DNA from: Polytrichum commune
Lineage: Eukaryota > Streptophyta > Polytrichopsida > Polytrichales > Polytrichaceae
Direction of reading: 5' to 3'
Length of the DNA stretch: 64,000 nt
Assembly (NCBI GenBank): GCA_950295325.1
Contig: OX485809.1
Span: 994,001 to 1,058,000, forward strand
The translations under genes were made by a program, and so were the position numbers. Below are positions 7,860-42,827 of this stretch, piece by piece. The notes under the pieces were generated by a model. That model searched no databases and was not told the origin of the DNA. It worked only from the letters and a program-made list of their open reading frames with translations. Every line of letters starts with the position of its first letter. Position 1 is the stretch's first letter.

Positions 7860-7865
7860 CCCCTC

Positions 7866-15317: not shown

Positions 15318-15374
15318 GGCAAAGGGGAGCACAATCATTATGGGATCCCGGTCGGATTTGACATGGGGCACGAA

Positions 15375-16365
15375 AAGGACGTATGGGGAACGCGGGGGCG
15401 GACGGAGGGAACGAGGGGGCGGACGTAGGGGAACTCGGGCGGACGGAAGGGAACGGAACGCGGACGGGAGGGAACGTACGGGAACATGGGGCGGACGGGA
15501 GGGAAACGTGGGGCGGACTGGAGGGGAACGCAGGCGGACGGGAGGGGAACGTAGCGCGGACGGGAGGGAACATGGGGCGGACGGGAGGGAACGTGGGCGG
15601 ACGGGAGGGGAACGTAGTGCGGACGGGAGGGGAACGTGGGGCGGACGGGAGGGAACGTGGGGCGGACGGGAGGGAACGTGGGGCAGACGGGAGGGAACGT
15701 GGGCGGACGGGAAGGGAACGTGGGCGGACGGGAAGGGAACGCGGGGCGGACGGGAAGGGAACGCGGGGCGGACGGGAAGGGAACGGGTGCGGACTGGGGG
15801 GGAACAGGCGCGGACGGGAGGGAACGGGTGCGGACTGGGGGGAACGCGGTAGGGAACGGGTGCGGACGTTAGGAAACGTGTGGGAACGTGAACGCACGGC
15901 GGGGGAACGTGGCGCGGACGTGAGGGAACTTGGGGCGGACGGAGCCCTCCGCGTTCCCCCCGTCCGCCCCCGCGTTCCCCCGTCCGCTCCAGCGTTCTCC
16001 CCCCCGTTCCCAACCCCCTTCCGCCCCACCCCCGTCCGCTCAACCCCCACCCCCGTCCGCTCCACCCCCTCCACCGTCCGCTCCACCCCCTCCCCCGTCC
16101 GCTCCACCCCCGTCCGTCCGCCCCACCCCCGTCCGCTCCACCCCCCTCCCCCGTCCGCTCCACCCCCCTCCGTCCGCCCCACCCCCGTCCGCTCCACCCC
16201 CCTCCCCCGTCCGCTCCACCCCCCGTCCGTCCGCACCACCCCCCTCCCCCGTCCGCACCACCCCCCTCCCCCGTCCGCTCCACCCCCCGTCCGTCCGCAC
16301 CACCCCCCGTCCGTCCGCTCCACCCCCCTCTCCCGTCCGCCCCACCGTCCGCCCCACACCCTCCT
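15375..16365. repeat. GC-rich array with a switch of orientation in the middle
   Basis: This array is made of the same GTCCGC/GTTCCC modules as the one at 7866-9190. From about 15375 to 15945 the plus strand is G-rich (GGGAACG and GCGGACG). From about 15950 to 16365 it is C-rich (CGTTCCCC, CGTCCGCTCCACCCC). The array is therefore a large imperfect palindrome. The G-rich half is inverted relative to the array 6 kb to the left. Confidence 0.85.
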
Positions 16366-16554
16366 TAGTCATATTTTTCTACTTTGATTTTAACAGAACC
16401 CTAAACACAATGGCAAAATGGTTTACTTGGCAAGGGAAATATGCACATCCACGTCGGCGTTTTCTGCCACATAGGACGCCACCTTGGCAAGAAGGTAAGT
16501 ATTTTACCCACCCTAGTCCATTCCCCCTATGTTGACCCTACGTGGACCCTATTG

Positions 16555-16771: not shown

Positions 16772-19700
16772 ATGGATTTGGAAAGAACAACTCCTATTTC
16801 TACTGATGATGAATCCACAATGCATTCAATTCATAATCGTCCATCTCAACCAGTTCATCATCATCAGGACATATCGTCAAATCTTCATAATAAGAAAAAG
16901 AAAAAAATAAATGAATCCCTCGATGATTTTGACTCGGATGAAGATAATGATGGTGACAATAAAACTTATCAAGAGAAAGTGTGGGAGCTTACGAACAAAC
17001 GAAAGGTCAATTCCACTTCCACAATTTCTTCAATCCGTGCTGGACCTAATGCTCGCTTGCGTGTACCCTTATGTCGCATGGTTCCTATGCCGATTGTGCG
17101 TCCTGCTTTGAAGGGTGATATTACTAAATTGGAGGCTGATTTTTTCAATGGTTATCGTGATGGTGACCGTGTGTTTTATATATCGGCCACCGATTCTAAG
17201 GGAAACTTTCAATTCGTGGATGATGAGGTTCGCGCATCTTGGAGCCCAAATTGGGCTCAAGCCAATGCCCTGTTAAAATTTCAATTGGATACAGATTTGT
17301 CATTGACGTCATACAAGAACAAGATGTTTTTTATATGGGATAGAAATCACAGATTTCTTGCTTGAAAAAATTCTATTGACCGCATATGTACCGAAGATTA
17401 TGAACGTCATGTCTTTGTGGATTCTATCATTTTGGCGCCCGAGTCTGACGACATTCCAAGTTTGTTGACTGCTATGCATGACATCAACAAGTAATGTTCT
17501 TACCTATTTTTTTACACTTATTTCTAGTTTATATTTTGTTTTCCAAATTATATCATCATGAATCTAATAAATTTAATGTTTCTTTTAGATCAACCGAAAA
17601 TTCTCACGTATCCACCAATTTGGTGCATACTTTATATCGGATGCAAAGTATTGGCACCATGCCTTTGACTTCCTTCAGAAAGCAACTGGATCCAAAGAGT
17701 TATAAACGATGTGAGGAGAAGTCCGTCGAAACTTGGTATTCTTTGACACGACCAATTTTTTTGGATTACATGTACAATGTAAGTTCTTCTACCATTGCTA
17801 ATATGTGCCTTATGTTTATTCACCTTCATTTTACATTACATCTATATGAACTTATAAATATTGACTTTTGTTTGATTTTTCAGCAAGAACTTGCTGAGGC
17901 TAGCGATATTGCTCTCAACCAGTACAACGAAACTCATCATCTTGAACGGACATCAGACGGAGTTTCAAAAGCAATGTCCGCAGCTGTCAACAAGAAACGT
18001 GCAATGTTATCTTCTAGTATTACGAAACAACTAGCGATTGCCGATATCAACATTACCTCTGCTTTCCTGGAAGAAGTTAAGCACCATTGGGGTTCATTTT
18101 CGGTACCTGAAATGCTACAAGAGAAACTTCATCATGTTGCTGTCAGTAATGTGGATGCAGAAGTCAAAGTTGGATGGCTCAAGCTTTGGAATGACAATAG
18201 ATTTGACAAAGATGCATTGCATTTCCCGAAATCGCCCCTCTCTAATTCTGCACTTGATGATTGGTTATCAAAGTCTACATATTGGGCACAGTTGGAAAAA
18301 AAGGCTATCGAAGAGCTTCAAAGTATTCTTTCATCTCCTCTTCAGTTGCCTGCAGATGTGCCTACTCTCTCCGAGTATATCCAAACCTGGAAGTTTGCAA
18401 CTTTCAATTCAATATTCTATTGTGAATTCCAAAGCGGAAAAGTTAAAAAACACAACGGTTGGGATAAACAACCTAATATTGATCTTACTATGAAACGTGT
18501 ATTATACAGGTACAACCTAATCTTATTATTTTTTTGATTTTTTTTATTCCATTTGTCAAATTGTCATGGAATATTTGACTTACAATATTTTTGTGTGTAG
18601 GTATTTTCGATATGTTTTGATTTCACATAAATGCGTTATAGGGGAACCTCGTTTTTTCCCAAATTGGCGTGACACTGGTGCAGGAGATTCATGCATGTTC
18701 ACTACTGAGATTTGTTTGGATTGGTCGCTCCCACACTATGAGGATTGTGGTTGGTATCTTGATTGTCCTAAGGATGCATGTCCGTGAAGTGAAAAGATAA
18801 TCCGTCAGATAAATGATGCTAAAAATGTGGATCCTCGTGATACTGCAATTTTGCAAGCACAAATTGTGCAGCTTAAACTTAGAGAGCCAAAACCAAAAGA
18901 GACAAAACGTCGTAAGAGGAAACATATTCCTGAAACCAAAATACAAGATCAATCGGAAATTTCACAATATGAAGAATTGCTTGTTTTTTCCAATGATTTG
19001 GATAAGAATCCACTTTGAGGCGAAAGTTCAAAGTCTAGGTGCGATGTATTGGAATTCCATTACTCGAGCACCTATGACGCTATTCATCGTGCGCCAACGA
19101 ATGTTTTGAGAAAAGAGTTATTCATACTGAAGAACTTTCTCACGCTCTCTTTTGCTCGATCTACTGCTATCAAGAACAAGTCTGAAGGGGTTGAAGTAGG
19201 CCCTCCTGAGTGGATCCAATGGCGGACATTTCTTGAAAATGTAAGTATTATTGTTTTGGTATTTTCTGTAATGTTTTTACTTTCATTTGGATTTTATTTT
19301 GTGTCTTATATTGTGATATGTTGTGGTATTTCAATTCAAAGACAATCGCGAATTTCATGTCATAGGAAGTCCGACTCCATTTGCCGTTGACTTGGTTTTT
19401 CTGCAATTTCCCGACGGTCTTGACTTCAACCTCTCCAATAGACCTGCTGAAATTCCTCTTTGGAATAAATATGACAAGAACTTGATGGTTGCAACAATGT
19501 CCTTGTGCAAGTCCATCTTGTCTGATGATGGCGTCCTCATGGTATTTTCTGCTATCAATATGCAAACCAAGAAGGTTTTGAATTCAACCTTACACAACGG
19601 CAACATGAAAGTTCTTAGGACTTTTATTTGCCTCAATTCGTACATGGTGTTCAAGGATCCGGAGTCTCCAACCTACACCGTAAGTATAACATATCACAAT

Positions 19701-20599
19701 TGTTTCTATTTAATTATTTTGGTGTTATTTGCATTGTATATAGTTTTAACACAATTTATATTTTTTTGTAGACTCCGGCATTTATGGCTCATGTCTTGGT
19801 AAGGGATTTTATTACCACAAAATCCACGAGACAACCAAACTCCACTTTTTTTGGCACTGGATTGAAAAGCAAAAACTTGCTTTTCAATTTTGTGGATGAA
19901 AAAAACATGCTTCTTCAAAAATCGGGAAGACCTTGGAGGGGGCCATATCAAAAATCGCCGCGTTTTTTTCAAGATCTTATTGAATTGTTTACACCATCGA
20001 ATGGACGCGTTGTTGATTTGACATGTTCCACTGGAGCTTCTATCCTAGCAACACGCGCATGTGGCAGACATCTTCTTGCATTTGAGGGTGATAATGACAT
20101 GTTTGAGCACATATTGAAACCGCTTTTGGAAAACGTTTTGAAAGAGGGGTCATCTAAGGAGAATATACAAGATCTCACAAAAGAAGATGATAACCTCTCA
20201 GATGAGGAGATGCTTGAATTTGAGTGTGAGTAAGTTTTAATACAATAAATTTTTATTCAATTCATTCGTTTCATTCGTTTCATTCAATTCATTGGTTCAT
20301 TTTGATTTCTTCACATTATTTACATGTTTCATCGATTTGATTTTAGGAATACGATTGAAAAGAGGACATGTCTCCCGTTTTGGGCACATAGATAATTCCT
20401 ACGAAGTCCAAGCCATAGCCCGCGTCTCCCATCATATGCCGAGAATGTTGTAATTGCAATGTTGAATCTCGAAGATTCGGATCCAAATAAAGAATCTTGC
20501 TATAGTTCCAAAATCAATTCGCAATGCAAAGGTGCTCGAATATATATAGATGACGAGGCAAAAGATAGTTTCATGTCTAGTGCTACTACTGATGAATAA
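16772..20599 (+). pseudogene. ParB-like / DNA N4/N6-methyltransferase-like fusion gene, copy 1 (broken)
   Basis: Seven exons: 16772-17490, 17589-17778, 17884-18509, 18601-19240, ~19325-19679, 19772-20229, 20347-20599. Splice phases agree except at the start of exon 5, where the nearest AG gives the wrong phase. The N-terminus has a Lys run and an acidic run. It is followed by a ParB/Srx-like domain (VPLCRMVPMPIVRP, FFNGYRDGDRVFYI, then MFFIWDRNHRFLA in the place of the ParB GxHR-A motif). A helical middle part follows. Exons 5-6 carry the methyltransferase fold: VDLVFLQFPDG in the DPPY position, ILSDDGVLMVF, then DLIELFTPSNGRVVDLTCST and GRHLLAFEGD matching motif I. In-frame nonsense codons lie at 17363, 18785, 19016 and 20393. 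The first falls where copy 2 has Trp. A 3' transposon end lies 70 bases downstream. The ancestor may have bound and modified DNA; activity is doubtful because motif IV is degenerate. Confidence 0.75.
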
Positions 20600-20667
20600 A
20601 TTTTTGGACTTCATGTTGTTTATCCTTTTCAACCCTCTTATTACTAAACCCTAAAATCATCATTTTT

Positions 20668-20796
20668 AATGCCACAATTCCACGGTTATAGGATATTGGT
20701 GGCCCTATTACCAAAATTTTCATCTTCCTCACTACTCATAAGTTACCGCTCATCGCTCACCGCTCATTGCTCACCGCTCATAAGATAGCACTCCCC
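20668..20796. repeat. Orphan right end of the 11-kb transposon family
   Basis: It matches the right terminus at 38125-38251: a conserved AATGCCA...CCACGG..ATAGG part, then heptamers written on this strand as YYGCTCA, then GATAGCACTCCCC. It follows copy 1 of the ParB-methyltransferase-like gene just as the right end follows copy 2. No matching left end was found upstream of copy 1, so that element is truncated. Confidence 0.7.
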
Positions 20797-21789
20797 ACAA
20801 CCCGGAGAAACCAACCCAAAGGGCGAGATCCTGATGAACAACTACCAAGTCTCTCTGAGCATTCTAGCCTAAAATACTAGAATTATTGTCCTTGTGACAC
20901 GGTCAAAAATCTAGCGGATAGTGGAAATACATGTCAGATCCGCTACCTCTATCGCGGAAACCTTATCCCGGAAGTCATGACCCATAATAAGGAATCTTAG
21001 AATGGAGTGTATATAGTTGTTATACTATGGATTCGGGACGCTGAGTCTATTGTTGTTACTACTCTAGGGTGGGAGCTTGCCCATACTTTGTATTGTGTTC
21101 CCTACCTCGGTCCACTACCGGGAAAGCCGAAATTTCCGTACTATAATTTCCGTAATATCCCGGATTTCTTAATCCGATATGTGTTATCTTAGTTTCTGGT
21201 GTTTCTTGTGTGTGTGTGTGTGGAATATTCCCTCACTCTGTGTTGTGAACGACCGCAGGTTCTTCGTGGGAACGAACTTGGCGCGGCTGTGACGTTTTAC
21301 GCGTTTATCAGGTTAATTTAATGAATACGTCACCACCGTGCTACGACATGCATGAATTATTGGTACATGTTTCCAGTACAATGTGAAGAATTAAGAATCA
21401 ACCATCTAACTCCACTTTTTGTAGTGACAATGCCCTACACTTGTTGGTTCTTGTGACGGACAGATCATATTGAGAATTTCAAGTGACGTCTTCATTTTCA
21501 ATTTGAGGTTGCGTTATGAAGGGTTGTTTTGAGAGAGGTATATTTTGAAGGGCCAAATCACGTTTGAAGGGCATTGAAGACTTCAATCTTAAACACTGCC
21601 CATGAGCATGAAGAATCTATCTATCTTCTTGAACCAATAAGACTTATGACAAATAATTAGTATGTGTTGTAAATGGACTCTTGAGCAAGGTCTCGAGTAT
21701 GCTCACAGTGTTTGTCAAGAATAAAGGTTGAGCCTGTGCTGACTCATTGTCACCATCACCATCATGCTTGGCATGAGTAAACACATCAA
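20797..21789. other. No gene seen; possible LTR remnant and GT microsatellite
   Basis: The sequence 20880-21310 has features that could belong to an old LTR, but no paired copy is visible. A short GT repeat lies at 21208-21223. Nothing else can be supported. Confidence 0.3.
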
Positions 21790-21792
21790 GGC

Positions 21793-22500
21793 ATGATAAT
21801 GTTGACACTTCAAAAGAAAAGATCACAACTAATATCTTAGGTATAAGGTAGAGGGTACTTAAATACACTCTTTGGTTTATTTAGCCTACATATAGCATCC
21901 ACTTTGTATAAGAGATGGCATGTATGCCTTAGCAAATGCACCCGCATTGTCATCATAATTTTTTCTTCACTATAACTTGAATATAATAAGCACTTCCTTT
22001 CATGATATGTAGTACACTAAATATGATATTGATGATGTTGACACTTCAAAAGAATAGATCACAACTAATAACTTAGGTATAAGGTAGAGGGTATTTAAAT
22101 ACACCCTTTGGTTTATTTAGCCTACATTTAGCATACAATTTGTATAAGAGATGGCATGTATGCCTTAGCAAATGCAACCACATTGTCATCATAATTTTTT
22201 CTTCACTGTAATTTGAATATAATAAGCACTTCCTTTCATGATATGTAGTACACTAAATATGATATTGATGATGTTGACACTTCAAAAGAATGAATCACAA
22301 CTAATAACTTAGGTATAAGGTAGAGGGTACTTAATACACTCTTTGGTTTATTTAGCCTACATATAGCATTCAATTTGTATAAGACATGGCATGTATGCCT
22401 TAGCAAATGCAACCACATTATCATCATAATTTTTTCTTCACTATAATTTGAATATAATAAGCACTTTCTTTCATGACATGTAGTAAACTAAATAAGATAT
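21793..22500. repeat. Three tandem copies of a 236-bp unit
   Basis: The phrase GTTGACACTTCAAAAGAA begins copies at 21801, 22037 and 22273, exactly 236 bp apart. Each copy continues through TTAGGTATAAGGTAGAGGGT, CATGGCATGTATGCC-like sequence and CTTTCATGA. Small open frames in it are incidental. Confidence 0.85.
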
Positions 22501-25500
22501 TTAGTTTTTGATACATTAAATTTGAACGCATACACTAAATGTCAATAATTTTATAAAAGTAAGTAACATTAAATGTAAACTCAAACACTAAATACCAACT
22601 ATGGTAATATGTGGAAGTTACATGCTTGAATTTAATGTTAGTGAGGATATGAAAAAAAAATGATAAAAGGAGAACTCCAGCATACCTTCTAGAATATCTT
22701 CTAACACTAATTGTCAAGGAATTGAAAATTAGTGTTGAGCAGGGAGGGTGGTAAAAAAATTAAATATAATCAAACATTAAATATCATATTTGGTATAGCT
22801 TCTTAATGCCTTTATCCCAAAAAAATCCGACAAGGGGTAAATTCGACAATTTACCCAAGAGTATAGTATCGCAGTCAATAAGAGCTAACATTTTAGAAAA
22901 TATTGGAGGTTTTATTTCTATTTTTTTAAAAGTTGTTTGTAGAAGTTGACTAATAATAGTAATCGACTAGACCAGTCAACCAAAACATTAATTTTTTTCT
23001 ATTGGAATCATCACGACATCAAAAATTACCATGTCCAGGGGTGTCACATCCTAACAACATAGTATTCATGAAAATGTCACATTCACATGTGACAAATAAA
23101 ATTCCAAGGCTGACTTAGTTCCTAGTCTTGTGGAGTGCACTTCACCTTTGAAAAAATTTGCATTTTTGAAACTAATTTTGTACAAACACCTATGGTACAA
23201 GTTCATAGAGCTAAGAAGAAGTCTATTTATGAATGTTATGTTTTGATTGCTATCAAGAGTGTTTGAAGTAACAATGAAAAATATGTGCAGTATACAAGTA
23301 TACATAATTTGCATTTGTAATTCCTAGATCATTACTTGTATGTGCATGAGTTCTTGAATCCTATCAAGCCATTTTACATGTAACAATTGTTGGAACTATA
23401 CATCATTTAAAAGTGTGTCATTACATATTTGAAATGTGCAGCTCCATGTACAAATTCAGAAACATTGTCATATTTAGCCCGTCCTACCCTCTTTCTCACT
23501 AGGTTGTAAAGGGTTGCTTGACTTTATGGTAGGGCTACACTTAATTATGTTTGACTTTTTAGTAGAATTATCATGGGCAGCATTGCCATAACACTACTAG
23601 AAAATGTGTTTCAATATGATTGCAAATCAACTACGTTTTGACAAAGTGTGGGCCACTTTGACCCAAGTCGAACGAGGTTTAAGTTTTCAAGTTTAGTGTT
23701 AGGTTTGCAGTCATTATGGTTACTTGTTCATGCTGTGCATAATTCATGACTCATGTCATGTCCATCTCCTGAATTTATACCAAGCCTAATTGATGAATCA
23801 TTAATTGAGAATGAATTATATCATAAAAGTAGCTACCAAACCATGTCATGAGTATAAAAGTGCAAGTTGGCAACTCTATCTTATTTTAATTGGCAACTCT
23901 ATCTTATTGGATAACACTTGCACTCAATCTTTGCTGCATCAAAGAATCAAACCCTCCACCACTTTGTTAGAGCCAAGTAGCCTAGCCAACTTCACATCCA
24001 AGCTACTTGATGTATAGGATTAAGAATTCATAAAACAACTAGAGTCCATGTAGTTTTCCATTCATTCAAATTTCCTTGAGCCCCAAAGCTTGAATGTAAA
24101 GTGGAGTGGAATGTTTGAACATGAAATCAATGAGAACATAGTTGAGAAGACCTACATGATCTATTTGTATTTTAAGGCTCAATTCTAACTTGATTACAAA
24201 TTTATCATCCGGGGAGGATTTTGGGCATAGTTGGTCGAGATCGTAGTTTTTAAAGTCCAAATAGTTGTATGTTGACATTTTTAGATTTTTCTTTATTAAA
24301 TTGATGTATATTTTATAGATTCTAAACCTCAACCAATCAATTTTCAAACTCAACCAATTCATATGTAACTAGCGTTGGTTCTCCCTATTCATTGTTCACA
24401 TTGGTGTTCTTTTCTTTTTCTTTTGTATTAAAAGTCCACCCCGTGATATTATATATGCTAATGCCTCAAATAATACCCCTTTCTACATTCATGTTAGTTC
24501 GTAAGTCACACGAAGAGTCCACCCTTGGGATACCATGCATGGTAATGCCTCAAATATTACCCCTACATGTTCTCACGTTATGAATAGTCCACCCCCCATG
24601 CAATAGACGAAGCTTGTATGTAAACTCAACATGCAAATGATATTATCTATCACGTGCTCAATTACATCTCCTTGATATCAACTCTTGTGAGCAACATGTT
24701 GCCTACATAGTGATTCTTATAAAAATAAATAAATAAAATCAAAACTTATACACTATAACCTCTCTAACATCACACATGTGACAACCAAAGTGCACGTGCT
24801 TTTAAGGAGGTTTGCAGTGTTAACATAGAAGCGTGATAGTAAAGAATTTAGTGTAGTGTGTGACATAATGGAGAAATATTGAAACTGATGATTCCATACA
24901 TGGGACACAAATAATCTCCCTACCTAATAGAAGCTCATAGGTAGTTGTTGTGAGGGTTTGGGTTGTGGAACTAACCTTTGAAACATATCATCATGCAAGG
25001 AAAATGAGGATATTAACAACACTTAATGTAGAATGAGGCTTGTTGTTTTGGAATGGCATTGCACTCAGTTATAGAGTTTCGTCTATGTCAACTGTTGGTT
25101 AGCTACTAGGCAGTTGTTGTGAGGGTTTTATTTGAAGAATGAAAATTCGGAAGTAGGTCATCATGCAAGGAGAATGAGGATATTAGCAACATCAATTGAA
25201 TGATGGGGAGCGCATTTTTGGCATATACAAAATCAGATGCTCCTCGATGTTGATTTTGTTTTAGGAGGAGCATGTGATTTTATTGTTTGTTTTATAGGTC
25301 TCCTAGCATGATGTTTCAAAGTCTAGTTCCACATTGTCCAAAGATCTTTGGGAAGCTACAACACTGATGACTTTGATGGTCCAGGTGGTCTTTTGTGGTG
25401 CTATATATGTTCTTAGTTTCAGCAGTATTAAAATATGCGGTCAAAAATTCAACTGCACGGATGTAAACCTAAGTATTGGATGTATCTACTGCCAAAAATT

Positions 25501-26380
25501 GTGAGCATTCTGACCACATTTGCTATGTCAGATTGCTATGTATGAGCCCTTGGACTGTGCTTGAAAATTTCACAAAGCATGTTTAAGAAAAGAAAAGAAA
25601 AAAGTAACGTCCGTAGCCAGGTACCGGCGTGATTTTGAGCCCGTTAACCTAATGTTGATCACGGATGTTCATGATACAACATGAGGTGTTATGACTCTTG
25701 TGAGGTGGGCTCGTTTGGTGTACAAATTGTGCCAGGTCATTAGGGTGGTGGGACAGGTTCTTGTTTGTTTTCAAGTTTCCTTTTGTTTAGGATGAGGTAT
25801 GTGAGATATTTGAATGCGTTTTGGTGAATATTTTTCATGAGAGTTTTGATGGTTGATGTTGGGATTTTAAGGTTGGTGAGTTTGTTGATGAAGTAATTGT
25901 GTGCGGCACCTCATACACTTGCTATGATGATAATCAATAAGAGGGTCGTATTTGATGTGTTTGCGTGTGAGGGCTTGGTCCGGGTATCTATCATGACAAT
26001 ATGTGAATTCAATGAACTGGGTTGTGATTGTGGGGGATGGTGAAATTGGTGTTTGTGTGTGGTTTGGGGCTCCGATTAGACATAGGATGTTTGGTCTTAG
26101 TTTGGAGAGGCGGTGACATGTTGTTTGTGAGCATGTACATTATGGGGTTGTTTGTGAGCCCAATATGGTGCCCACATGTGTCCTTAAGCCTGTAAAACCA
26201 TTGAGGATTTACACTTTGAGGTTATTCAATCATATAGAAAAGATAAAAAGAGTGGAACTTAGTATTTAGGATCGCAATTGAGTTAAAACCAGTGCAGGGA
26301 TTAAAATAGATTTTGGTTGGAAGAAGTGATTTGGGCATTAAAAGTTGGGAATGAAAGACTTAGGGTTATGGGAAGTTTTA
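22501..26380. other. Intergenic, dispersed repeats only
   Basis: I see no gene. A degenerate direct repeat lies at 24928-25037 and 25099-25207 (shared AGTTGTTGTGAGGGTTT and TCATCATGCAAGG). The segment 26157-26222 resembles 44116-44175 (shared AGCCCAA, CACATGTGT, TAAAACATT-like order), suggesting an old LTR-type fragment. One copy of a dispersed repeat is listed separately. Confidence 0.45.
24195..24390. repeat. Dispersed repeat, copy 1 of 3
   Basis: It shares order and wording with 55670-55880 and, inverted, 56112-56325: a GGGGAGGATTTTG..GCATA start, CTTTATTAA in the middle, and CAACCAAT..CAAACTCAACC near the end. It is more diverged than the other two copies. Confidence 0.6.
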
Positions 26381-27074
26381 GAGCATCTCCACCCGTTGGC
26401 GGCAACGGGCACGCCAACGGGGGCTTGGCTGGTGCCAAATTAGGTGGCCGGTCGCGGGACCCAGCATCCCCCCCACCGCAGACACTTCGTCGAATGGCTC
26501 CCGGCTCCCGGAAAACAGCTGTCTCCGCTCCTGGAATCAGACAAGTTAGATAAGTTAGATGCAATTATTTGGGATGGGTGGTATTGATCGGGATGCCTGA
26601 TGGATGAGTGGCGACAATGGTGAGATTCTTACTTCACGCTCTATTGCTTACATGTGTGGCGTTATAGATTCTGGGCACTCGATCGGTTGGCCTGACTCCG
26701 GAGACATTTCTTTTCTGGCAGTTGGATCGGCTCGAGAATTGCCTCATGTGAGTTAGTGGTTGCGTATAATCACGATGAACATCGATGTCATCCTAGGCAA
26801 GCACATCGAGAAGCAAGTAGCTGCTCTCTCATCACCCACGAAGAGAGGAACATTGCAATTCGCACACGCATTTCGCCATCGTAGGTTCAGATTACAGCCA
26901 TCAAGATTTAGGCTTCGGAATCAATACAGGATCGGAGAACGGATTGCTAGAAATCCGGGTGAAAAGCAAGGATTTGGAAATATTAGGGTTTCAGACGAGT
27001 TGGGACGCACTGGGTTTTTGCCCAGTTTGTGAATTCGAAGAGGAGGTTGCTGTGATAAAATTCTCTCTCCCTCC

Positions 27075-27082
27075 CTGGGCGA
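27075..27082. repeat. Target-site duplication CTGGGCGA, left copy
   Basis: These eight bases lie directly before the left inverted end GAGGGA. The same eight bases directly follow the right end at 38252-38259. Confidence 0.8.
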
Positions 27083-27225
27083 GAGGGAAGCTAAGACATG
27101 AGCGATGAGCGGTGAGCAATGAGCAGTGAGCGGTAACACGTGAGCAATGAGCAATAACACGTGATCGATGGTGCGAAATATAGTAACTGGGCACGGTTTT
27201 AGGGTACATATTCTAATATTGGCAT
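27083..27225. repeat. Left terminal inverted repeat with heptamer array
   Basis: About eight copies of TGAGCRR, interrupted by TAACACG, occupy 27095-27170. After them come GGGTAC and TATTGGCATTTTTTTCT, which also occur inverted in the right end. The array is a likely transposase or accessory-protein binding region. Confidence 0.75.
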
Positions 27226-27413
27226 TTTTTTCTTTGCAATTTAAGAATTATAAAGTACTCACATTTTGATTGAACAAGAGTGAAGGGAGCACATTATCAT
27301 AGATATTTTTAAAAACCATCAGTCTTTTGTTGATTTTTATTATAAAAATCCACACTAATACATGTCACTTACCAAAATTCTCAAACATGCGGTTGAATAC
27401 AACACTTGGAATA

Positions 27414-30400
27414 TTACTCACATTCTACAACACCTGCAAGTTCAAGGAGTTGCATAACCTCATTGTAGGAGTATGTTGGAGCGTGAATGAATTTGTCACT
27501 ACTGTAATCCACCTTACACAAAAATCTAAACACATAGTAAAGATGTTTGCAATACACCCATTTCCCTTTCTTTCCCAAAGATTGAGATGACATTTTTGTG
27601 AAGTCAGGGCATGTACAATGTGGCATGTCAACAATTGTGACACAATATTTGATGTTATCCTTGGAGACGATGTTGAGTAGGACTCCAAATCTTGGATATG
27701 CAATGGCAGTTACTCCAACCACATAGTAACCGTCCATGAGTCCAGCGCTCTCCCATTTGTTTTTGTGATCTGCCGTCAGTGCTCCTAGATTGCGGCGCAC
27801 CGTCTTTCCAAACCTGGAAGTTGGATGGGCATCTGGTTTTTGTGGTACACGAAAATCCGTCCGAGGAATCGGGAGCGTCGCAATTGTGGAAAGCCTACGG
27901 CGAGGAGAGAGAACCTCCCTTTGTTGTAATTGGAATCCAGCATCTTCGAGCGCCAATACCTCCTGCCTTGAGAGATTGGTACCTATCTTTACAGGCCATG
28001 TGCTGGGTACAATAGGCCAGTCTAACACGTATTTCTTCTTGCTACCACTTACACAACGTTTGATGTCGTCAGGGCAAAACCAAAACTCGTACTCCACATT
28101 GTTGGTGGAGCGGTATTCTTTCTTCAATCCCTTGTATGTAGGAGCAGGGGTGCCATGTTTGTAAGTTCCAACTTTGGCATTGCACAAAGACCCTGTATTG
28201 GCTTGCATCGCCCAACATCTTTTGGCAGAGTTGGATGGCAATCTTGCAATATGCCAATGAGAAGAAGGGCAACCAGTCTCTAACACCGATGTGGTATGTG
28301 CCACACCATACTCTGCAGAATTCAAAGATTCCTCTATGCATGCCCTTTTAACCCTAGTGTTGGGACGAGGAATCGAGTAGTTCACTTTGTCGGGTCGATG
28401 TGAGTCGCAATCTGCACCTGGCGGCAGATCAAGTTTTCGTTTGGTAGATCCAAACAGCTCAGACCCCTCCAAAGCACAATCCCTTGTATTGAGATCTTCA
28501 GCCCCCGGATAGGATTTCATGGCATCTGCTAGTAGCTTTGGATCTCCACACCGGGCAGCAGCCTTCAACTTCAAGGATGCAGAATCAGGGCCTTTACCAG
28601 TAAAACCTCCTCTCAACCACGATCTATAATTTGCAATCTGCATGAATGCACGGATCAAATCGTCCACTGTTGCTTCATAAAGACAAGTCATCTTGTTTCC
28701 AGACTGTTGGAGCCATTTGTTGTGCATTGTCTTTGCAAGGTTACACGTCGGCATTTCTGCACGTTCATCTATATTCATATCCTGTAAACATTACACAAAT
28801 TATAGTAGATTGTATATATCATGGATATTCAAAATTAAATAATATTGGAAAAACATAGTAATAATGCACTTACAAGAATCATATGACCACCCCATTGCCT
28901 ATAACGGAAGTGCCAAAACTCCAACCACTCGGAGAGCCCGTGAATGTCTTCTTCTGTGGCAGCTCCAGATGACAACCACCATGAACGAATAACATGATAT
29001 TTGGTTTCGGCTTCGTCCATTGTTTTCGCGTCTTTGTAATCTTTGCATAGTTGTTTGTGCTGAAACTGCAAAGATGCCTTGGTATATTTTTGCGTCACCT
29101 TGTCCAAGTTTTGTGACCAATGGAAAAGACAAGTGCGCTCACGACCCACCATTGGCAGACTTGGGTCACCTCCACCATATATCTTCCTGACCGCATTCCA
29201 ATTTGCTTGAGCACTGTCCGCCATAAAACCTTTGAAATTCACGGTTAACACTCCATTCTCCGCCATAACAGTATTCAAGTTTTCCCATAAAAGAGTTTGA
29301 GTTGCACCATCTTCAGATTGCATGTCACAACACGCAATGGTCAACACCTTACAATACTTGCTATCGTACACATGACACGCAAGGGTGGTCCAGTCCTTCA
29401 GACGTTTAACGTGGTCAAACATTATCCATGAATTCTCCATATCTCCTCCCTCCTGCATACGCATAACAAGATCCACACCACTCCCCGGAAGATCTATTGA
29501 CATTTTGAAGACAAATACTTTGTCTTTGGACTGTCCGGGGAACCTACTAGCATGAACGTACTTAAAGCTCGAATGGTCTTTGAGCGCCATGATACTATCC
29601 ATCGTACCCATTCCACTACGAACAAATCGCTTTGAGCCGGATACGAAATTCCGACAATTTGGAGAGGCAAGAATACTAAATTTATCCATGACGACCTCCA
29701 AAGACGAACCTGTCAAGTGATGTCTTTCACTGTTTGATGGAGATTTTAGGAGGTAGTCTACCAAAAATTGTTTGCTCGCTGCCATTACTATAGCGGAGTT
29801 TTTGGCAGTGGGTGTTTTTGTGACCTCATTGGCAACACATTGGTATGCAATGTCCAAAGATTCACGGCATGTACCATTGGACACAGGGTGGTCATGCACG
29901 CCTAGATGAATACAAGCCCTGGCCATTTCAGAAGATGTGGAGTGCACATATATTATGCGAGCATGGCATAAAGCTATGCATATAGGTGTGGAATGACAAA
30001 CCTTACATTCCAATTTGGACCTCTCAGGGGCAATAATACCCATAGAGAATGGGGTAGGAGTTGATCCGGCCCATTCGGTGTTGTTGCGCTCGCCTGCATT
30101 GCGATGCATATAATCACAAAAATCATTAGAGCATTGGAGATGACCTGCACAAGTAGAACGTCTGAAGGTTAATCCAAAATCATTTTGGATATTTGTGGTT
30201 TTGGTGGTGCACCAAGGATGTCCATCGCACATCTTATCCATGTCATCAATCGAACGACCATAGGCGCTTGGAACTCCAAATGGCACAGGGGGCAATACAA
30301 ACAAAATGTCACCGTCAAAAGAGGAGGGCAAATACTTAACATCTCGCATCTCTATGCTATCAAAATCAATGGACGCAAGATCTGACTTGGATCTTTTCCT

Positions 30401-31009
30401 AGACTTTGTTTGTTTCAATGCGTCGACAATATTCATACCCACTGATGAAGAAAAATTGTGTAGCGGGGGACGTTGTGATACTGAACCATGGTGTGCCACC
30501 TTCACATACAGAGGACTGTAAGGAGTTTTGGGAAGATCCATAGGGGGTTTTGAAGGGGTGGAATCTTTACTTCTAAATGGAAATGGTGATGTATCAGAAA
30601 AGTCAACAACAGCACAAATGTCATCTTCAGAATCTGACAACACTATTATACTATCATCAGTAGGTTCCAATTTAACAGTGACGATACTTGGAACTTGAAC
30701 AGTTGATGTACTAGATTCATTTGTCAAAATGACAGTAGAAGCTTGCATCTGAGAATCAAAGAGTCCCATAACTCTATATGAACCAGGTCCTAAACTCCAC
30801 ATAGAACCACCCTCACTTCTATTCTTTTGCATCAAGATTGTTCTAGACACCTCTCCACCTACAGAGTATATCTCTTGCTCGACGTACATGGTTCCTACTT
30901 GGAGGTTGAATCTCAAACCAAGCAAATCTTCTAAAACAACTACACAACCATCACTTTCAAGAGGCAAAATGAAGGGTATAAAGGATCCATGAGCACAGAT
31001 GGTAGCCAT
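27414..31009 (-). CDS. Intact two-exon transposase with SWIM zinc finger
   Basis: Exon 1 is 31009-28874 and ends at a GTAAGT donor. Exon 2 is 28781-27414 after ...TTTACAG. The junction is phase 0 and there are no internal stops, giving about 1,167 residues. Seen in order: SUMO-interaction-like motif IIVLSDSEDD (residues 121-130); basic KSRKRSK (about 202-208); a Cys/His DNA-binding region with TCAGHLQCSNDFCDY (286-300), CKVC (335-338) and HLGVHDHP (369-376), of WRKY-GCM1 or FAR1 style. The catalytic core region has FMADSAQANWNAVR (second Asp, about 598) and CLFHWSQNL (about 627-635). A SWIM finger CTCPDF...CKH lies near the C-terminus. It would cut and join the element's ends. It starts 430 bases from the divergent cargo gene. 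Confidence 0.85.
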
Positions 31010-31437
31010 GAAGAATGTGTGGATGCAATGTACATCATACTATGGAAAACATGACCTATTTGTATTGTGTCTTGGCAATCTTAATCCATGGACTTGAAAA
31101 ATATACTATATGAATGTCTATTGAAAGACATGGTGCACATGGGCTGGTAGGTGTAAAGAAGGTAATGCCAGTTGTTGATTATATTAGGTAGACAATGACC
31201 AATGTAAGGAAGATATTTTAATAGCGTATCTTTAGCTTTCAAATAAAATTCAATATCTTAATGTTTGGGTTCTAAAGATGGTGGTGGTGGGCCTTTAATA
31301 ATTCCTAAATCCCAAAGAAGAAGAAGACATAATGAGTGATGATCTGTTTCAAACTTCTTACAACTTCAAAGTGAGGTAGAGCTTTTAGGTTATGCAAAAA
31401 GCGAATGTAGAGAATTGATAGATTTTTAAGGTTGCAA
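31010..31437. promoter_or_regulatory. Shared promoter region between divergent genes
   Basis: A 428-bp AT-rich interval separates the start codons of the transposase (minus) and the ParB-methyltransferase-like gene (plus). No single TATA box stands out. The layout implies the two genes are expressed from one bidirectional region. Confidence 0.5.
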
Positions 31438-34400
31438 ATGCAAGAACGGGATTATGCGACACCAACAAAGCGGAAGAGAAAGAGGGGTGGTTTTAAGTAC
31501 TCCACCAAAAAAGCATTGGCGAGATCAAGAATGGGGAAAAGATTGAGTAGGGTCGATGAGGGAGAGGCATTTTTGACATCGAGAACTATATTGTTTAAGC
31601 CCGGAGACGAAGATACTTACACTGATGGGCTCGGCTCAACACCTTACATTGGAGGCGAACCCAATACAGAAAGAATTACGGACACCCAGGAATCTTCTGG
31701 AGCCGAGGATGAAGGGGAGACTCAATATACAAGAGAAGTAAGACTCAATATTCATTTCTCACTTTGTAAATTCAATTGCAAGTTTTATACACATGTTGAA
31801 AGTACAATTGATATGAAGGTGGATACATATATTTTTTGTGGGCAAATATATGTTAAAATTTTGAAATTTGAGATTTTTGGGTAATACCTAAGTGAAGTCG
31901 TTCTTGAAATGGATGTCATTGAGGTGAAGGTTATGTAGTTGACCATATACATTGTTACATTTACGGTTGAGAACTCAAATAAGTCATAGTTGACGTGTGT
32001 ATCCTTGAGGGTGAAGGTAAACATCGAGGACGAGGAAGAAGAAGACAACTTGAATGAAGATGAAGAAGGAGAGGATGGTATAAAAGATGAACTAAGAGGA
32101 GGCTTGATAGACGAAGCAAGAGGAAGCATGGAAATCGATGGAGGAGGCGACTTCACCGCCGCCCAAAAATCTCAGGCAAGCATTTTGAAAGTAAACTTGA
32201 ATGCTTGAAATGTTTCTTAAAGATTGAGGACACGGATTTCATCACTTCCTCCTTACCCTTGGTTTCATAAGGTGCTGAGAATGAGACATTAACCCACAAA
32301 ATAAAGAAATAATGAAGCAAGAAAACCCTAAAATGAGTCTCGGTTCCGAGATTAGGTTTTTTGAAATTTCTGGGTTTTCTTCTTGCCTCTTCAATTCTTG
32401 CTTTTGTGTTTCTTTTCGCACTTCTTTGTGTTCATTGCTTATGTCTTGCTTTGATATACATGCTTAGAAGTTATTATGTAGTTTGCTTGATGGGTTTGTA
32501 GTGTATTCAAAAATTTCAATGAAGAAGCTTCATTGTTGAAATTGAAGCTTGAAATGGTTCTATAAGGTTAAGAACACGGATTTGATCACCTCCATCCCAC
32601 CCTAGGTTTCATAAGGTTCTGAAAATTAGGCATTTGTGACCACAAAAGCAAGAATTGAAGAGGCAAGAAGAAAACCCTAAAATCTCAAAAAAATGAGTCT
32701 CGGTTCCAAGACTAGGTTTTTTGAAATTTCTGGGTTTTCTTCTTGCTCTTCAATTCTTGCTTTTGTCTTTCTTTTTGCACTTGTTTGGGTTCATTGCTTG
32801 TGTCTTGCCTTGATAGGTATGCTTACAAGTTATTGATAAGTATGCTTGATGGGTTAGTATGTGGTTTCAAGAATTTCAATGAAGAAGCTTCAAGCTTGAT
32901 ATTCAAGCTTGAAATGAATCTATAAGTTTGAGGTCACGGATTTCATGACCTCCCGCTCACCCTTGGTTTGGTAAGGTACTGAAAATGGGGACATTGATGT
33001 GTACAACAAGAAGAAATGAAGAAGTTAGAAAAAACTTCAAAATTCCGAAAAAATGAGTTTCGGTTCCAAGACTAGGTTTTTTGAAATTTCTGGGTTTTCT
33101 TCTTGCTCTTCAATTTTTGCTTTTGTCTTTCTTTTTGCACTTATTTGGGTTCATTGCTTGTGTCTTGCCTTGATAGGTATGCTTACAAGTTATTGATAAG
33201 TATGCTTGATGGGTTAGTATGTGGTTTCAAGAATTTCAATGAAGAAGCTTCAAGCTTGATATTCAAGCTTGAAATGAATCTATAAGTTTGAGGTCACGGA
33301 TTTCATGACCTCCCGCTCACCCTTGGTTTGGTAAGGTACTGAAAATGGGGACATTGATGTGTACAAAAAGAAGAAATGAAGAAGTTAGAAAAAACTTCAA
33401 AATTCCGAAAAAATGAGTTTCGGTTCCAAGACTAGGTTTTTTGAAATTTCTGGGTTTTCTTCGTGCTCTTCAATTCTTGCTTTTGTCTTTCTTTTTGCAC
33501 TTGTTTAAGTTCATTGCTTGTGTCTTGCTTTAATGTGTATATTTGGAGGTTGTTAGATAGTTTGTTTGTTGTTATTGCGGTGTATCCTAGAATTTCAATG
33601 AAGAATCTTCAATGTTGAAATTGTTGCTTTAAATGGTTCTAAGAGGTTGAGGGCTTAGTTTTTTTTCTTTGAATGGTTAATTTTTATGTAATTTGATTGA
33701 ATGTTATTTGTGGTTTCATAGTTATGTGTTAATTTCATTTCATTTGTTATTCGAATTTCAGGATGGTGGAGATGACGATGGCGGTCCCCCACTGCCCAAT
33801 GATTTGTTAAATGTGGAAGAGACTATATTTCATATGCGAGATTTACAAAATACAAACTTCAATTCTTTGATTGGAGGACTTCGTATGAAGCCGTTCTCAA
33901 AGTCAAGAGTTTCAATCCCTCTTTGTCGGTTAATATCGTTGCCTATTGTGAGGCCAATATTGGAAATCGATGTCCAGCTTTTGGAGAATGAATTTGTGAA
34001 TGGTTATAGGGAGGGTGATAGGGTACTGTATGTATCTCCATATGACAAAGATGGAAATACTATGGATATTCGGGATGAAGACACTTGGAGAGAACATTGG
34101 CAATCTTTCAATAAATCATTTGAGGAAATCCTTAAGAATGATAAGGATTATGAAAGGTTTTGTGGTAAAATGTTCTTTGTTTGGGAGGGTAACCATCGGG
34201 TGACAGCTTGGCGCCGCCATATCGATAAGGTCCATGGAGAAGATAAAGAGTGGTATTACTCTGTTGATTGTATAGTACTTGAATCAACCGGTTCGGTGGC
34301 TCTTCTTCTAAATGCTATGCATGATGTGAACATGTATGTTTTATGTTCCGATGTTTATTTATTTATTTATTGTTTATAATTATAAAATTATAAAATTTAT

Positions 34401-37400
34401 TGATTTTTTTTTGTCATCTTTCTTAGGTCTACGGAATCAGATCATGTCAAGACAAATTTGGTTCACAAATTCCATCGTGTCCAAAGTTTTGGAATCATGA
34501 AGTTGGAGGAATTTAAAGACCTTTTTATCCCTGATCAATATTCCAAGTGTTTGAAGAAAGGTGGAAAGGGAACTTGGTATACCCTCACTTTGGAAGTCTT
34601 TACTCAATTTCTTTACAAGGTGGGTATTCTAATTCATGCTAAGCTCTGTTATTGAATATATTTTTGCTAAAGGATCTTAAACTAATTCTTAGTTTTTGGT
34701 TGTGTAGCGTAAAATAACATCTATGACCGAAGAGGCATCTCGTAAATACAATGAGAAAACTCCACTTCAATCAAGGACATCAAAAGGTATTTGGGATGTC
34801 ATGCAGAATGCAACAAAGAAAGCAGTATCATTAATTCGTGGAAAAGAATTCGAAAAACTTCTCGCTGTCGCAAATCCAGCCAATGGCTTCGATTTCTTGG
34901 AGGAGGTAAGTCATTATGTTTTTTATGTAGCATTCATTTCGGTATCCTATATGAGAGATTTTCATTATTTTCACCTTCCATTTTGCAGATCAATAAGCAT
35001 TTTGGAGATCGCTCTGAGCCTACCATGACCCTAGAGAAACTGCAAATGATTGCAACTGCTCCAGTGAATTCGGTGTTCAAAATCAAATTGTTAAGGTGGT
35101 GAAATTCTAGCGACATGTCCCGTGAATCTCTACGCTTTCCATTGGGAGATATCAAAGAAAAAAAACTTGAAAAATGGTTGATCAAAGCGTCATTTTGGGC
35201 CCAGGTTATTCCTTATTCTTAAATATCTAAGTGTTTTCATTTCAATTTTTGAATGTTTTATGATTTATTCAATGGTCGTGATGCATATGTGTCATTTTGC
35301 AGTTGGAAGATGGTTTTGTGAAACAATTTGAGGATATGGAAAAAGAAATGAATGTGAAGATTATTTGGAATGCACATATACTTATGCCTTCTGAGTACAT
35401 TGAAAAGTGGCGTATTATGCTTTGGACAAAAGCATTCCGACATTTTTTTGGTGGTATGAGTGTATTTACAAAATCTACTCTACTCGGTAAAATTTTTGGA
35501 GGAGGCATTGCTATCAAACGAGTGGTATTCAGGTAATTTATCTTTTCTTTCTCTCATAGCTTCAATTCGTTCATTGCATACTTGAAGTTTGCCTTGACGT
35601 AATCGATTCACTAACTTCAATCAAATGGTTATTTTATCTCAAAGGTACATAAAAAACGAGCTATTGGCTTCAAACGCCATCTCCCTTGGCTCCATTCCGA
35701 GTTGTTTCTCTTCATGGGCTGACAAATCTAGTGACCTTTGCATTTTTACGGCAACCCAGATAAGAGTTTGGGATTATGCCACTTTGCAGTCTTGTCCATG
35801 ATTTATTGAGTGTCCTCTTACGTTTTGTCCAAGTGAGGAGGAGGAGCTCAGGAAACAGTCATGTCCAATAGACTTGCCTCCTGATGATATTGACATGATG
35901 AACAACGAGGATGTGTGTGTGGTGAAAGTAATCAAACCGGAGGGAAAAGCTAAACGTAAGCGTGGCTCAAAGGTAGATGAGGTTAATCCAACACCTTCAT
36001 CTCAAACCGGTGTTATGGCACACAATCCTAGTCCTTCAACACCTACACCTAGCACTCAAGATAATGATGGACCTAAGTTTTCTCCCATTTCAAGATCACT
36101 ACGATTTCAACATGTGTCAAAAACCATTGTCAGTGGTGCTTCACCTTCTGGGGCAATTTGTTCAGTGATGTTGGAGAAGATTTCAATTCAAACATTGATG
36201 GAGAATGGTGGTCATGAGCATCCGTTAATGTTGAAAACATTTGAATTTGTGACTAAGGTCAGTATACTCAACATTGAACTTATTTTTATTTTATGATATA
36301 TATATGGTGTTGATGTTGCAACATGTTTTGGACTTGAGTGTAATATTGTTTTTTGGTTTTTTTTTTGTAGGTGGGTTCCGGACGCAATAGGAGGGTTTCT
36401 TCAGAGGATTGTAGTTTTGGAGGTCTTGACCTTATTATTGCAGATTTGCCAGAAGGTTTGCCTGTACCTAACGTTTCATCTCCTCCACATATAATCCCAG
36501 CTTGGAACGACCACAAGAGAAAGAACATTGAGGCTCTATTTGAATTTGCATGTGCATATCTCACCGATGATGGCCCCTTGCTTTTGTTTGTTCCCGAGAA
36601 GAAAGATGTCAGAGAGGATGTAGGGACATTCGCAGCCTCCTATGATTTTGTATTGCGAAAAGATTGGTGGGGCTTCAACGAGTTGCCGTTGTGTTATCCA
36701 CTTGACACATCATTGACGGTATACATTAAACTCTATTATTTATTACTTTGAATTCTACTTTTTCATTGTATTGCAATGTTCTCATCAATTTTGTAATTGA
36801 TTCCCCCGCTGAAGGTTTTCTCGTGGTTTATAGACTCGTCGTTTCCGCATCATGTTGTTTCTTCGTTCTACTCCCAAGTCGGAGTTTGTTTTTCAAAAAA
36901 AGAACGCAAATACTGAGGTGGATGTGGAGGCCTTGGATGTGTTCTTCAATCTCACATCGGCAAGCACTCAACTCATGAACGGAAAAGTGCCATGGAGAGG
37001 TGGTAGGGAGAAAGACTCGGAATCGATGCAAATCTTAATAGAGGCTTTAACAACTCCCGCATCGGTTGTCCTCGTTGCTTATGCATCTACAGGTTGGTTT
37101 ATCTCTTACTCAAAGGACCTATTATATCATCTCCCAATATGTTTTAATGAAATCATTGTAGTGTTGTCAGTGGCTTGTGCAAATTAACTGACATTTCAAC
37201 ATTTCATTGGCAGGTGCATCTATTCATGCTTGCAGAAATAGTGGGCGCCATCTAGTGGCATATGAGGAAGATTCTGCATTGTTTGATGCCATTCTATCCC
37301 CATTAAGTGATCCACCACCAACTGCTATTGTAGGTGGATTTATGCCATATAATGCCTCCATCGTTTCCGATGAAGAGCATGTTAAGAAGGTTGCGAGAAA

Positions 37401-37687
37401 AAGTCGATTGAGTACGTAAGTTTTCAATTTCTCCATATTGTTTGTTAATTTGGCCCTCCAATGTCTGATATGTGTGCACTAGAAGTCTAACACTTATGAT
37501 GTCAATTTGCAGAAAAAAGAAAAACATGACTTCATCTCCGAATATGGGTTTGCCAATATATGCAGAAAATGTTGCATAGATCATGGCAAGATCAGTGACG
37601 CCAACTCCTCGCCGTATATCTACACGAATTGCTCGTAACCCGTATGTAGATGATGAGGCGATTCAATGCGATGATCTAAGTGATTAA
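31438..37687 (+). pseudogene. ParB-like / DNA N4/N6-methyltransferase-like fusion gene, copy 2 (transposon cargo, broken)
   Basis: Exon 1 runs from ATG 31438 to 31737 (KRKRKRGG basic motif). A second acidic exon is likely around 32015-32190. Well-supported exons then follow: 33762-34333, 34427-34619, 34708-34905, 34989-35203, 35303-35532, 35645-36257, 36371-36718, 36834-37092, 37214-37415, 37513-37687. Phases agree except for one lesion. The ParB/Srx-like domain shows VSIPLCRLISLPIVRP, FVNGYREGDRVLYV and FFVWEGNHRVTAW. The methyltransferase part shows LDLIIADLPEG in the DPPY position, LTDDGPLLLFV, then VVLVAYASTG with the intron falling inside motif I, and GRHLVAYEED. Lesions: TGA at 35100 and 35799, both where copy 1 has Trp; one base missing in the A-run 35158-35164; TAG at 37577. 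The fold is confident; catalytic ability is doubtful and the cargo role is inference. Confidence 0.75.
32200..33660. repeat. About four tandem copies of a 360-bp unit
   Basis: The units contain CTCGGTTCCAAGACTAGG, TTTGAAATTTCTGGG, TTCTTGCTCTTCAATT, ATTTCAATGAAGAAGCTTCA and CACGGATTT. The 32743 and 33103 copies are nearly identical and exactly 360 bp apart; the first and last are more diverged. The array lies between the acidic 5' exons and the ParB-like exon of cargo copy 2, so it is intronic or has replaced part of the gene. Confidence 0.85.
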
Positions 37688-38124
37688 GCTAAACTAGTTT
37701 AGGGACATTTAGGTAGTTGTCAATACCATCCACTATGTGTTTGATTGGATTGGATATTATTTGGTGGATGTGTGACAAAGTTTGGATTCATCATTTGAAA
37801 TTACCACAATTAGTGGACATTGAATTGTGTGAGCAATTTCCTCTTATTCCTAAACCCTATATCCTAAAACTTAATTACCTCTATCAATCCATTTCTCAAA
37901 CTTACATGAATTTTAGAAATACAGTTTAGAGCAATACTTGGAAGGTGCTTGCATTGTTATTACAATTGGATGTTGCATCCAACAACAACATTAAAAATAT
38001 TTTTCAAACCCTCATGCCAAGCTTGCAGTTGTTGAATTTAAAAGTAGAGTTAGGTATTCATGAGGATAATTATATTTTTTGACTATCCATTAATTTTATT
38101 ATAGAAAAAAATATTATTATTTAT

Positions 38125-38251
38125 GCCAAAATACCACGGATATAGGGTACTAGTGCGTGTATTTCCAAAAATCTTTCCTCACCTACCGTTCACAAGTTAC
38201 TGCTCATCGCTCACCGCTCATTGCTCACCGCTCACATGATAGCACTCCCCC
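38125..38251. repeat. Right terminal inverted repeat with heptamer array
   Basis: This is the complement of the left end: ATGCCAAAATACCACGG, then AGGGTAC, then heptamers written as YYGCTCA from about 38181 to 38235, ending GATAGCACTCCCCC. It is followed directly by CTGGGCGA at 38252-38259, the right target-site copy. Confidence 0.8.
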
Positions 38252-38761
38252 CTGGGCGATATAAGTTCAGCTTGAACGCAAAACTCCACGAAATTCAACC
38301 TTGATGAAATCGAAGCATATTGCCGAAATTTCGGACTCCCACCATAGAAAGAGTTCCTGCGAAGCTTTGAAACTAAACGCCAGCCGGCACAGGCCTTGAA
38401 ATCAAAGTAGGCAAAATCAACAAGCTAATTCCCGGAAGCAAATTCAACAAGCAAATTAACTGAAGCAAATTCAACAAGCAAATTCAGAATGGAGCTAGAA
38501 CTCAATTCATCAATGATATTGCCCATGGAGGCTTAATCCAAAGTGTACATTGTCTTCACTGGAGACTAAATTTTCTTGGTATCCATCTAGATCAATTGGC
38601 TGGGAGTTGCTACGCTCTGACTGCTCACCCAATACCCTAAACTGAGTTGGTTGTCCGATATCTACGTGTTCCAAACTAAACCAATTCGCAGGGGAAAAGT
38701 GCAGAGAACCTAAACCCTGTGAATTCTCACTGCAACCATTCTAAGTGTTCCGATGCTCCTG

Positions 38762-42775: not shown

Positions 42776-42827
42776 GCGGTTTCCACCGTTGGCGTACGCC
42801 TCCCAGCCAACGGTGGAGATGCTCTTA

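Follow-up and report, generated by a model that had tools for sequence, protein, structure and literature searches.

Two decayed ParB-methyltransferase-like genes in Polytrichum commune, probable accessory genes of a Mutator-like DNA transposon

In Ectocarpus, the transposon Sola1-1 encodes a 1104-aa protein with ParB-like and N4/N6-methyltransferase (MTase) domains on the strand opposite its transposase; similar proteins have been reported from green and red algae, and methylation of their own transposon has been proposed for them (PMC12477816). Fusions of ParB-fold domains to N6_N4 MTases are also described in phages (PMC12704722), and in Arabidopsis the VANC anti-silencing proteins of VANDAL elements target fast-changing repeats, introns included (PMC5735166), each of these statements being drawn from excerpts of the paper cited. 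Both the ParB-MTase architecture and its carriage by transposons are thus already known. Here we analysed 64,000 nt of Polytrichum commune (contig OX485809.1, 994,001-1,058,000, forward strand), which we call the window and whose positions we use throughout. It contains two genes of this type, copy A (16772-20600) and copy B (31438-37687), which we read, with a probability of roughly 0.7, as decayed copies of an accessory gene on a Mutator-like DNA transposon whose protein would regulate or protect the element. Of the identity of the gene and of its vehicle, taken separately, we are highly confident.

The initial annotation, made from the letters alone, had described two paralogous genes aligning exon by exon, and this was borne out by tblastn. 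The copy A frames find collinear counterparts in copy B, with E values, in order, of 8.8e-29, 3.5e-6, 2.2e-23, 8.4e-7, 4e-7 and 4.4e-8; the first belongs to the N-terminal domain (37.6% identity over 133 aa), 2.2e-23 to exons after it and the last two to the motif IV and motif I exons of the MTase-like domain. The introns it had proposed also stood: GT-AG borders, picked by eye from the A/B alignment, can be placed at six sites in copy A and nine in copy B, and one copy A exon (17884-18509) is the counterpart of three copy B exons. The parts of the two genes are as follows, with the strand where there is one.

16772-17490, +, copy A exon with the predicted ParB/Srx-fold domain; TGA 17363-17365 where relatives carry Trp
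17589-19240, +, copy A middle region, exons 17589-17778, 17884-18509 and 18601-19240; TGA 18785 and 19016
19341-19679, +, copy A motif IV exon (LQFPDGLDF); phase mismatch with the preceding exon
19772-20229, +, copy A motif I exon (VVDLTCSTGASI...GRHLLAFEGD); PF01555 and PHROG 67 matches
20347-20600, +, copy A last exon; YAEN motif, common to copy B
31438-31884, +, copy B likely first-exon region with a basic KRKRKR stretch; ATG at 31438, open frame
32330-33528, 360-bp tandem repeat, 3.3 copies (Tandem Repeats Finder, TRF), between the copy B basic 5' frame and the ParB exon
33762-34333, +, copy B exon with the predicted ParB/Srx-fold domain, from alignment and predicted model
34427-36257, +, copy B middle region, exons 34427-34619, 34708-34905, 34989-35204, 35303-35532 and 35645-36257
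35100-35102 and 35799-35801, +, TGA stops in the copy B middle region, from reading the sequence
36371-36718, +, copy B motif IV exon of the MTase-like domain (IADLPEGLP), from alignment
36834-37092, +, copy B MTase-like domain, exon reaching motif I, from alignment and profile comparison
37214-37415, +, copy B motif I continuation (STGASIHACRNSGRHLVAYEED); end re-read from the sequence, first placed at 37419
37513-37687, +, copy B last exon with an internal TAG 37577-37579, from alignment and sequence reading

Both window copies are pseudogenes. Copy A carries TGA stops at 17363, 18785 and 19016 and a frame break, its exon 4/5 junction being out of phase, and copy B carries TGA at 35100 and 35799 and TAG at 37577. 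The stops at 17363, 35100 and 35799 coincide by eye with Trp of relatives, a pattern that fits decay of methylated repeats, although this cause is our inference. The GYRxGDRV signature noted at the outset is present in both genes (GYRDGDRV in copy A, GYREGDRV in copy B). Two other motifs named there hold for one copy each: GNHR-A(W) is whole only in copy B (GNHRVTAW), whereas copy A reads RNHRFLA and then stops, and GRHLLAFEGD after motif I is the copy A version, its counterpart in copy B being GRHLVAYEED.

Spread on transposons had also been suggested. Element ends, target-site duplications (TSDs) and a transposase-like partner show this directly in copy B and in family C, a sister family. 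The element around copy B (element B) and the right end beside copy A comprise the following.

27073-27082, left TSD CCCTGGGCGA, a 10-mer identical at both borders of element B
27083-38249, transposon B, 11,167 bp, with a perfect 10-bp TSD, imperfect terminal inverted repeats (TIRs) and divergent transposase-like and ParB-MTase genes
27083-27164, left TIR region (TGAGCGGTGAGCAATGAGC-type units), by gapped alignment with the right end of B
27417-28790, -, C-terminal part of the transposase-like gene, bearing a SWIM-like CxC...CxH motif; 48% identical to family C across 210 aa
28838-31039, -, main part of the transposase-like gene, 734-aa frame; 46% identical to family C across 726 aa
38194-38249, right TIR region of B; 94.7% over 57 bp to the copy A right end
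38250-38259, right TSD CCCTGGGCGA, identical to the left 10-mer
20740-20795, copy A right terminal repeat, by similarity to the B right end

Positions 27105-27132 of the B left end match the reverse complement of the copy A right end (96% over 28 bp, E 4e-8). Mutator-like elements (MULEs) typically have TSDs of 8-11 bp and long TIRs. MULE-type TSDs were seen here in one element per family, with 10 bp at copy B and 9-10 bp at the family C element c2, and inverted ends of this type are present in an imperfect, repeat-rich form. For copy A, all that is seen of an element is the gene and its right end. Upstream of this copy lie two G+C-rich tandem arrays (7774-9350 and 15319-16370), whose units, about 21 bp long, run partly in opposite directions in the two.

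A search of the species' own genome (407.8 Mb, 64 contigs) showed how far these genes have spread. With the copy B ParB exon as query, all 150 scored candidates out of 1357 from a first look matched (E<=5.7e-48), giving a family of at least 150 exons, of which 101 are stop-free and 49 contain an internal stop (hand count); copy A is not among these 150 matches. The motif IV exon gave 150 matches out of 150 scored (1227 first-look candidates). Near-identical ParB-MTase copies are spread over several chromosomes, and six such copies of family C were examined as 30-kb stretches. Their similarity ends at common right borders, and two elements, c2 and a second one beside c5, reach a common left border, the others being cut or running past the end of the stretch. 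c2 measures 16.2 kb, has inverted ends of 42 bp and is flanked by the duplication AGAAACTCG(G); its right half holds the ParB-MTase gene and its left half, on the opposite strand, encodes a transposase-like protein to which the two window frames align with the identities listed above. When spliced at sites equivalent to those of copy B, three of the six family C copies keep a 1041-aa frame from the ATG of the ParB exon, while one of the damaged copies has two stops, one a frameshift and one has lost its 3' end.

The transposase-like gene was traced in the same way (61 of 61 scored candidates matched; 2803 at first look). Within 15 kb, a divergent ParB-MTase exon accompanies at least 12 of the 61, where 0.42 would be expected (with guessed sizes for two contigs); for one more the exon lies on the same strand. 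The 12 are a lower bound because only part of the exon positions entered the count (149 of 150 for the ParB exon, 80 of 150 for motif IV). Each of the seven best transposases, among them the one in the window, is paired with a ParB-MTase gene. These counts bear on whether this is simply a host gene family, perhaps of redox or DNA repair regulators, that was duplicated near transposons by chance. Introns, a long conserved protein and a moderate purifying signal would suit such a family, but the genes of B and family C lie inside element borders with TSDs, which largely refutes it for these two, and neither the pairing with the same kind of transposase nor the near-identical copies on several chromosomes would be expected of it; we regard it as very improbable. 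Recent bacterial or viral contamination or insertion might also be considered, given that the same assembly holds a bacterial-looking contig (C12) with a ParB-MTase gene: locus L001 (1468-2799) has a 443-aa frame with ParB_N and an MTase part with DPPY (by eye), and is probably a contaminant contig from a bacterium or phage. For the window copies we judge this origin refuted by their GT-AG introns, by their place on a long contig, with numerous paralogues on further long contigs, and by pattern-based scans of limited reach, in which neither bacterial genome contigs nor viral contigs yielded a relative, nor any prokaryotic sequence similar enough to build a tree with.

For the N-terminal domain the initial annotation had proposed a ParB/Srx fold, and the topology of the predicted model supports this assignment. 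The catalytic Cys of sulfiredoxin (Srx) sits in GCHR, and it occurs in none of the 66 N-domain rows, among which GNHR-AW is almost invariant. The GxxR phosphate motif (Box II), whose role in the ParB fold is treated in the excerpts of PMC12704722, is present in 57 of the 63 scorable rows, copy A itself reading RNHR. A tblastn search of phages with the ParB domain gave best matches of E 3 or worse, and PDB sequence searches with the N-domain query (A2), a single MTase exon (A3) and the transposase returned nothing relevant.

In beta-class amino-methyltransferases motif IV precedes motif I, and the catalytic motif IV of the class is (D/N/S)PP(Y/F/W). The C-terminal domain of the window genes has the same order, as initially proposed, with motif IV placed by eye from the order and from a strand-then-D-x-P pattern. 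Homology to phage DNA methyltransferases is supported at the sequence level. An hhalign comparison with four phage MTases, which had been found with the copy A segment as query and are no unbiased sample, gave 97.4% over 56 C-terminal columns around motif I, leaving the motif IV half outside the alignment, with a score of 81.35 against a shuffle maximum of 18.38 (49 of 50 shuffles scored). For each of the spliced A, B and C segments the best PHROG match is a methyltransferase family (9.6e-7, PHROG 67, for A; 8.8e-5, PHROG 3008, for B; 0.0018 for C), with lesser matches to a tRNA methyltransferase (A) and a function-unknown family (B). The sole Pfam family for them is PF01555 (N6_N4_Mtase), to which the annotation had likened the domain, at E 0.0011, 0.026 and 0.12, all short of cut-off; the copy A motif I exon by itself gives E 0.062, improved to 0.0011 once joined to exon 5. 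In a phage search the MTase query drew 64 records, and among the 20 listed the best was a phage 'DNA methylase' (E 8e-3), while six looked like chance matches to a helicase region of a Yersinia phage.

The catalytic motif itself is not conserved, and here the wording of the initial annotation is not supported. Across 121 aligned rows (A, B, C and 118 public proteins found via family C, mostly its nearer kin), 32 are gapped at motif IV and the other 89 read DVPE (27), DIPE (22), DILE (6) or rarer variants. D-[IV]-P-E thus accounts for 49 of the 89 readable rows and DPPY for none, a single row (EVLY) ending in Y. Motif I is variable, with DWQCGVG in C, DLTCSTG in A and VAYASTG in B. The protein might instead be an active N6-adenine or N4-cytosine DNA methyltransferase labelling the transposon that encodes it, a role which the excerpts of PMC12477816 propose for the Ectocarpus Sola1 protein and similar algal ones. 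This view could draw on the homology to phage enzymes, on the D and second P of motif IV being mostly retained and on the tolerance of DVPY or DLPY in the phage relatives compared. The missing DPPY and the variable motif I speak against it, and we consider an active enzyme unlikely. The changed motif would also suit a captured prokaryotic ParB-MTase gene that has no role in transposition and drifts along as passive cargo, as would the many broken copies (49 of 150 ParB exons, three of six family C genes). Such a passenger is hard to reconcile with 101 of 150 exons being stop-free, with the near-invariance of GNHR-AW and with a divergent layout kept between element families whose MTase segments are only 37% identical, and we think it still less probable.

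Our preferred reading remains that of an accessory gene whose product acts on its own element. In B and in family C the element carries two genes in opposite directions, a large transposase-like one and, facing away from it, the ParB-MTase gene, with variable repeats before the ParB exon, and is bounded by imperfect TIRs and 9-10 bp TSDs as seen in one element of each. The intact 1041-aa protein begins with a ParB/Srx-fold domain with GxxR, continues with some 400 aa of middle region and a basic proline-rich linker, and ends in a domain resembling beta-class amino-MTases. It may enter the nucleus and bind the DNA of its element, perhaps at tandem or terminal repeats, possibly gated by nucleoside triphosphate (NTP) as in ParB; for binding to the own element we see about even odds. 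The MTase-like domain, which keeps parts of the S-adenosylmethionine (SAM)-binding motif I and has lost the aromatic residue of DPPY, could serve as a SAM-dependent or structural regulator, shielding the element from silencing or regulating transposition.

The repeats upstream of the ParB exon probably lie in intron 1. The basic 5' frame of copy B that precedes them resembles, by eye, a basic 5' open frame of family C, and family C has arrays at the same place, with a 307-bp unit (2.8, 3.8 and 10.8 copies in three elements) and a 127-bp unit (5.4, 6.4 and 7.4 copies); TRF found no such array in the interior of copy A. Because these repeats resemble those targeted by VANC, anti-silencing rather than methylation can be tentatively suggested by analogy, at clearly less than even odds. 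A more specific version, which we hold to be rather doubtful, is that in a plant Mutator-like family a phage-type ParB-methyltransferase has become a non-catalytic DNA-binding factor, gated by NTP, that acts on the rapidly changing repeats in its own intron 1 and lets the element escape silencing. Such a factor would be an analogue of VANC of independent origin, assembled from bacterial chromosome-partition and restriction-modification parts. The changed catalytic motif speaks against simple self-methylation of the transposon.

Several observations weigh against this reading. The Mutator-like placement rests on TSD length, ends and the CxC..CxH motif, and the transposase family is unconfirmed: the transposase-like frames have no Pfam MULE transposase match, the main frame (28838-31039) matches no Pfam family at all and SWIM reaches only E 0.97, short of cut-off. 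Copy A has no transposase in the window, and the first 20.7 kb contain neither a second terminal repeat nor a duplication of 8-10 bp to mark a left end. None of the 66 N-domains matched ParB_N (ParBc, PF02195), the family named for this part at the outset, even at E<=1; the family C N-domain has no PHROG match, and Foldseek gave no match at E<=0.001. With four ParB-type sequences, hhalign of A2 gave a weak result (2%, E 0.025) that nevertheless lay in the expected register; the controls gave 0.3% (A2 against MTases) and 0.1% (A4 against ParB). The full 1041-aa protein matches no Pfam family, and the AlphaFold model of A3 had a predicted local distance difference test (pLDDT) score of 37.2 and was not used for a fold search. 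Among the 61 transposases, 48 have no ParB-MTase exon in the incomplete lists compared, besides the one on the same strand. Finally, the signal of selection is modest. In family C the nonsynonymous rate (dN, about 0.003-0.005) is below the synonymous rate (dS, 0.003-0.02) in 14 of 15 pairs over 2640 bases, but with few changes, and in subfamily B the pooled dN/dS of 0.53 (28 pairs from eight copies, four with an exon stop) is only moderately below 1. The six usable deeper pairs of subfamily B, leaving out six rows of loci L013 and L014, give 0.37-0.45. These values appear compatible with past constraint mixed with decay.

Elsewhere in the window, a 236-bp tandem repeat (3.0 copies, 21794-22501) lies outside both genes. 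A protein-kinase-like open frame (13172-14125, -) matches PF00069 at E 2.1e-6, short of cut-off, and another (41777-42841, -) has a NAM-associated C-terminal domain (PF14303, E 8.8e-7). Open frames at 46055-47813 (+), one with a CCHC zinc-knuckle by eye, are gag-like and perhaps a retrotransposon remnant, with no Pfam match. Inverted repeat arms of 115 nt (55667-55781 and 56213-56327; 86% complementary, 431 nt apart) resemble a miniature inverted-repeat transposable element (MITE).

Among known proteins, sulfiredoxin, SbnI and SerK share the ParB/Srx fold with the N-domain; unlike them, the protein described here lacks the Srx catalytic Cys and is fused to an MTase-like domain. The layout had been called familiar from phages and bacteria, and the same fusion is indeed found in the archaeal virus protein M.PhiCh1-I of PhiCh1 (L042; ParB_N plus PF01555, ParB_N at E 5e-5, its 23.7 bits falling short of the 26.3 cut-off), which is one of the four phage MTases compared above, and in the bacterial-looking L001. 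These fusions, like those in the excerpted survey (PMC12704722), have the same order of a ParB-fold domain followed by an MTase with motifs IV to I. They differ in being 419-443 aa long, in a single uninterrupted frame, without the long middle region and with a canonical DPPY, and their identity to the family C MTase segment is only 16-17%. VANDAL elements with VANC, by the excerpts of PMC5735166, likewise combine a transposase with an accessory gene and variable repeats in introns or non-coding parts, but VANC consists of DUF1985/DUF287 domains rather than ParB and MTase, and anti-silencing is shown there and only suggested here.

The elements can also be set beside the algal ParB-MTase transposons, compared here by description only (excerpts of PMC12477816). 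ParB-like and N4/N6 MTase-like domains occur in one gene within a DNA transposon in both, in proteins of about 1000-1100 aa encoded by giant elements on the strand opposite the transposase. The algal elements are Sola, whereas those described here have Mutator-like ends with 9-10 bp TSDs, another host, a changed motif IV and tandem repeats upstream of the ParB exon. As far as limited keyword searches of the literature tell, which found no Mutator-like ParB-methyltransferase case and are our sole basis for calling it unreported, what is new comprises the Mutator-like vehicle, the plant host, the large number of copies, the altered motif IV and the upstream repeats. The intact near-identical copies provide material for functional tests and, if our reading is true, ParB-MTase proteins extend from algae to high-copy Mutator-like elements of plants.

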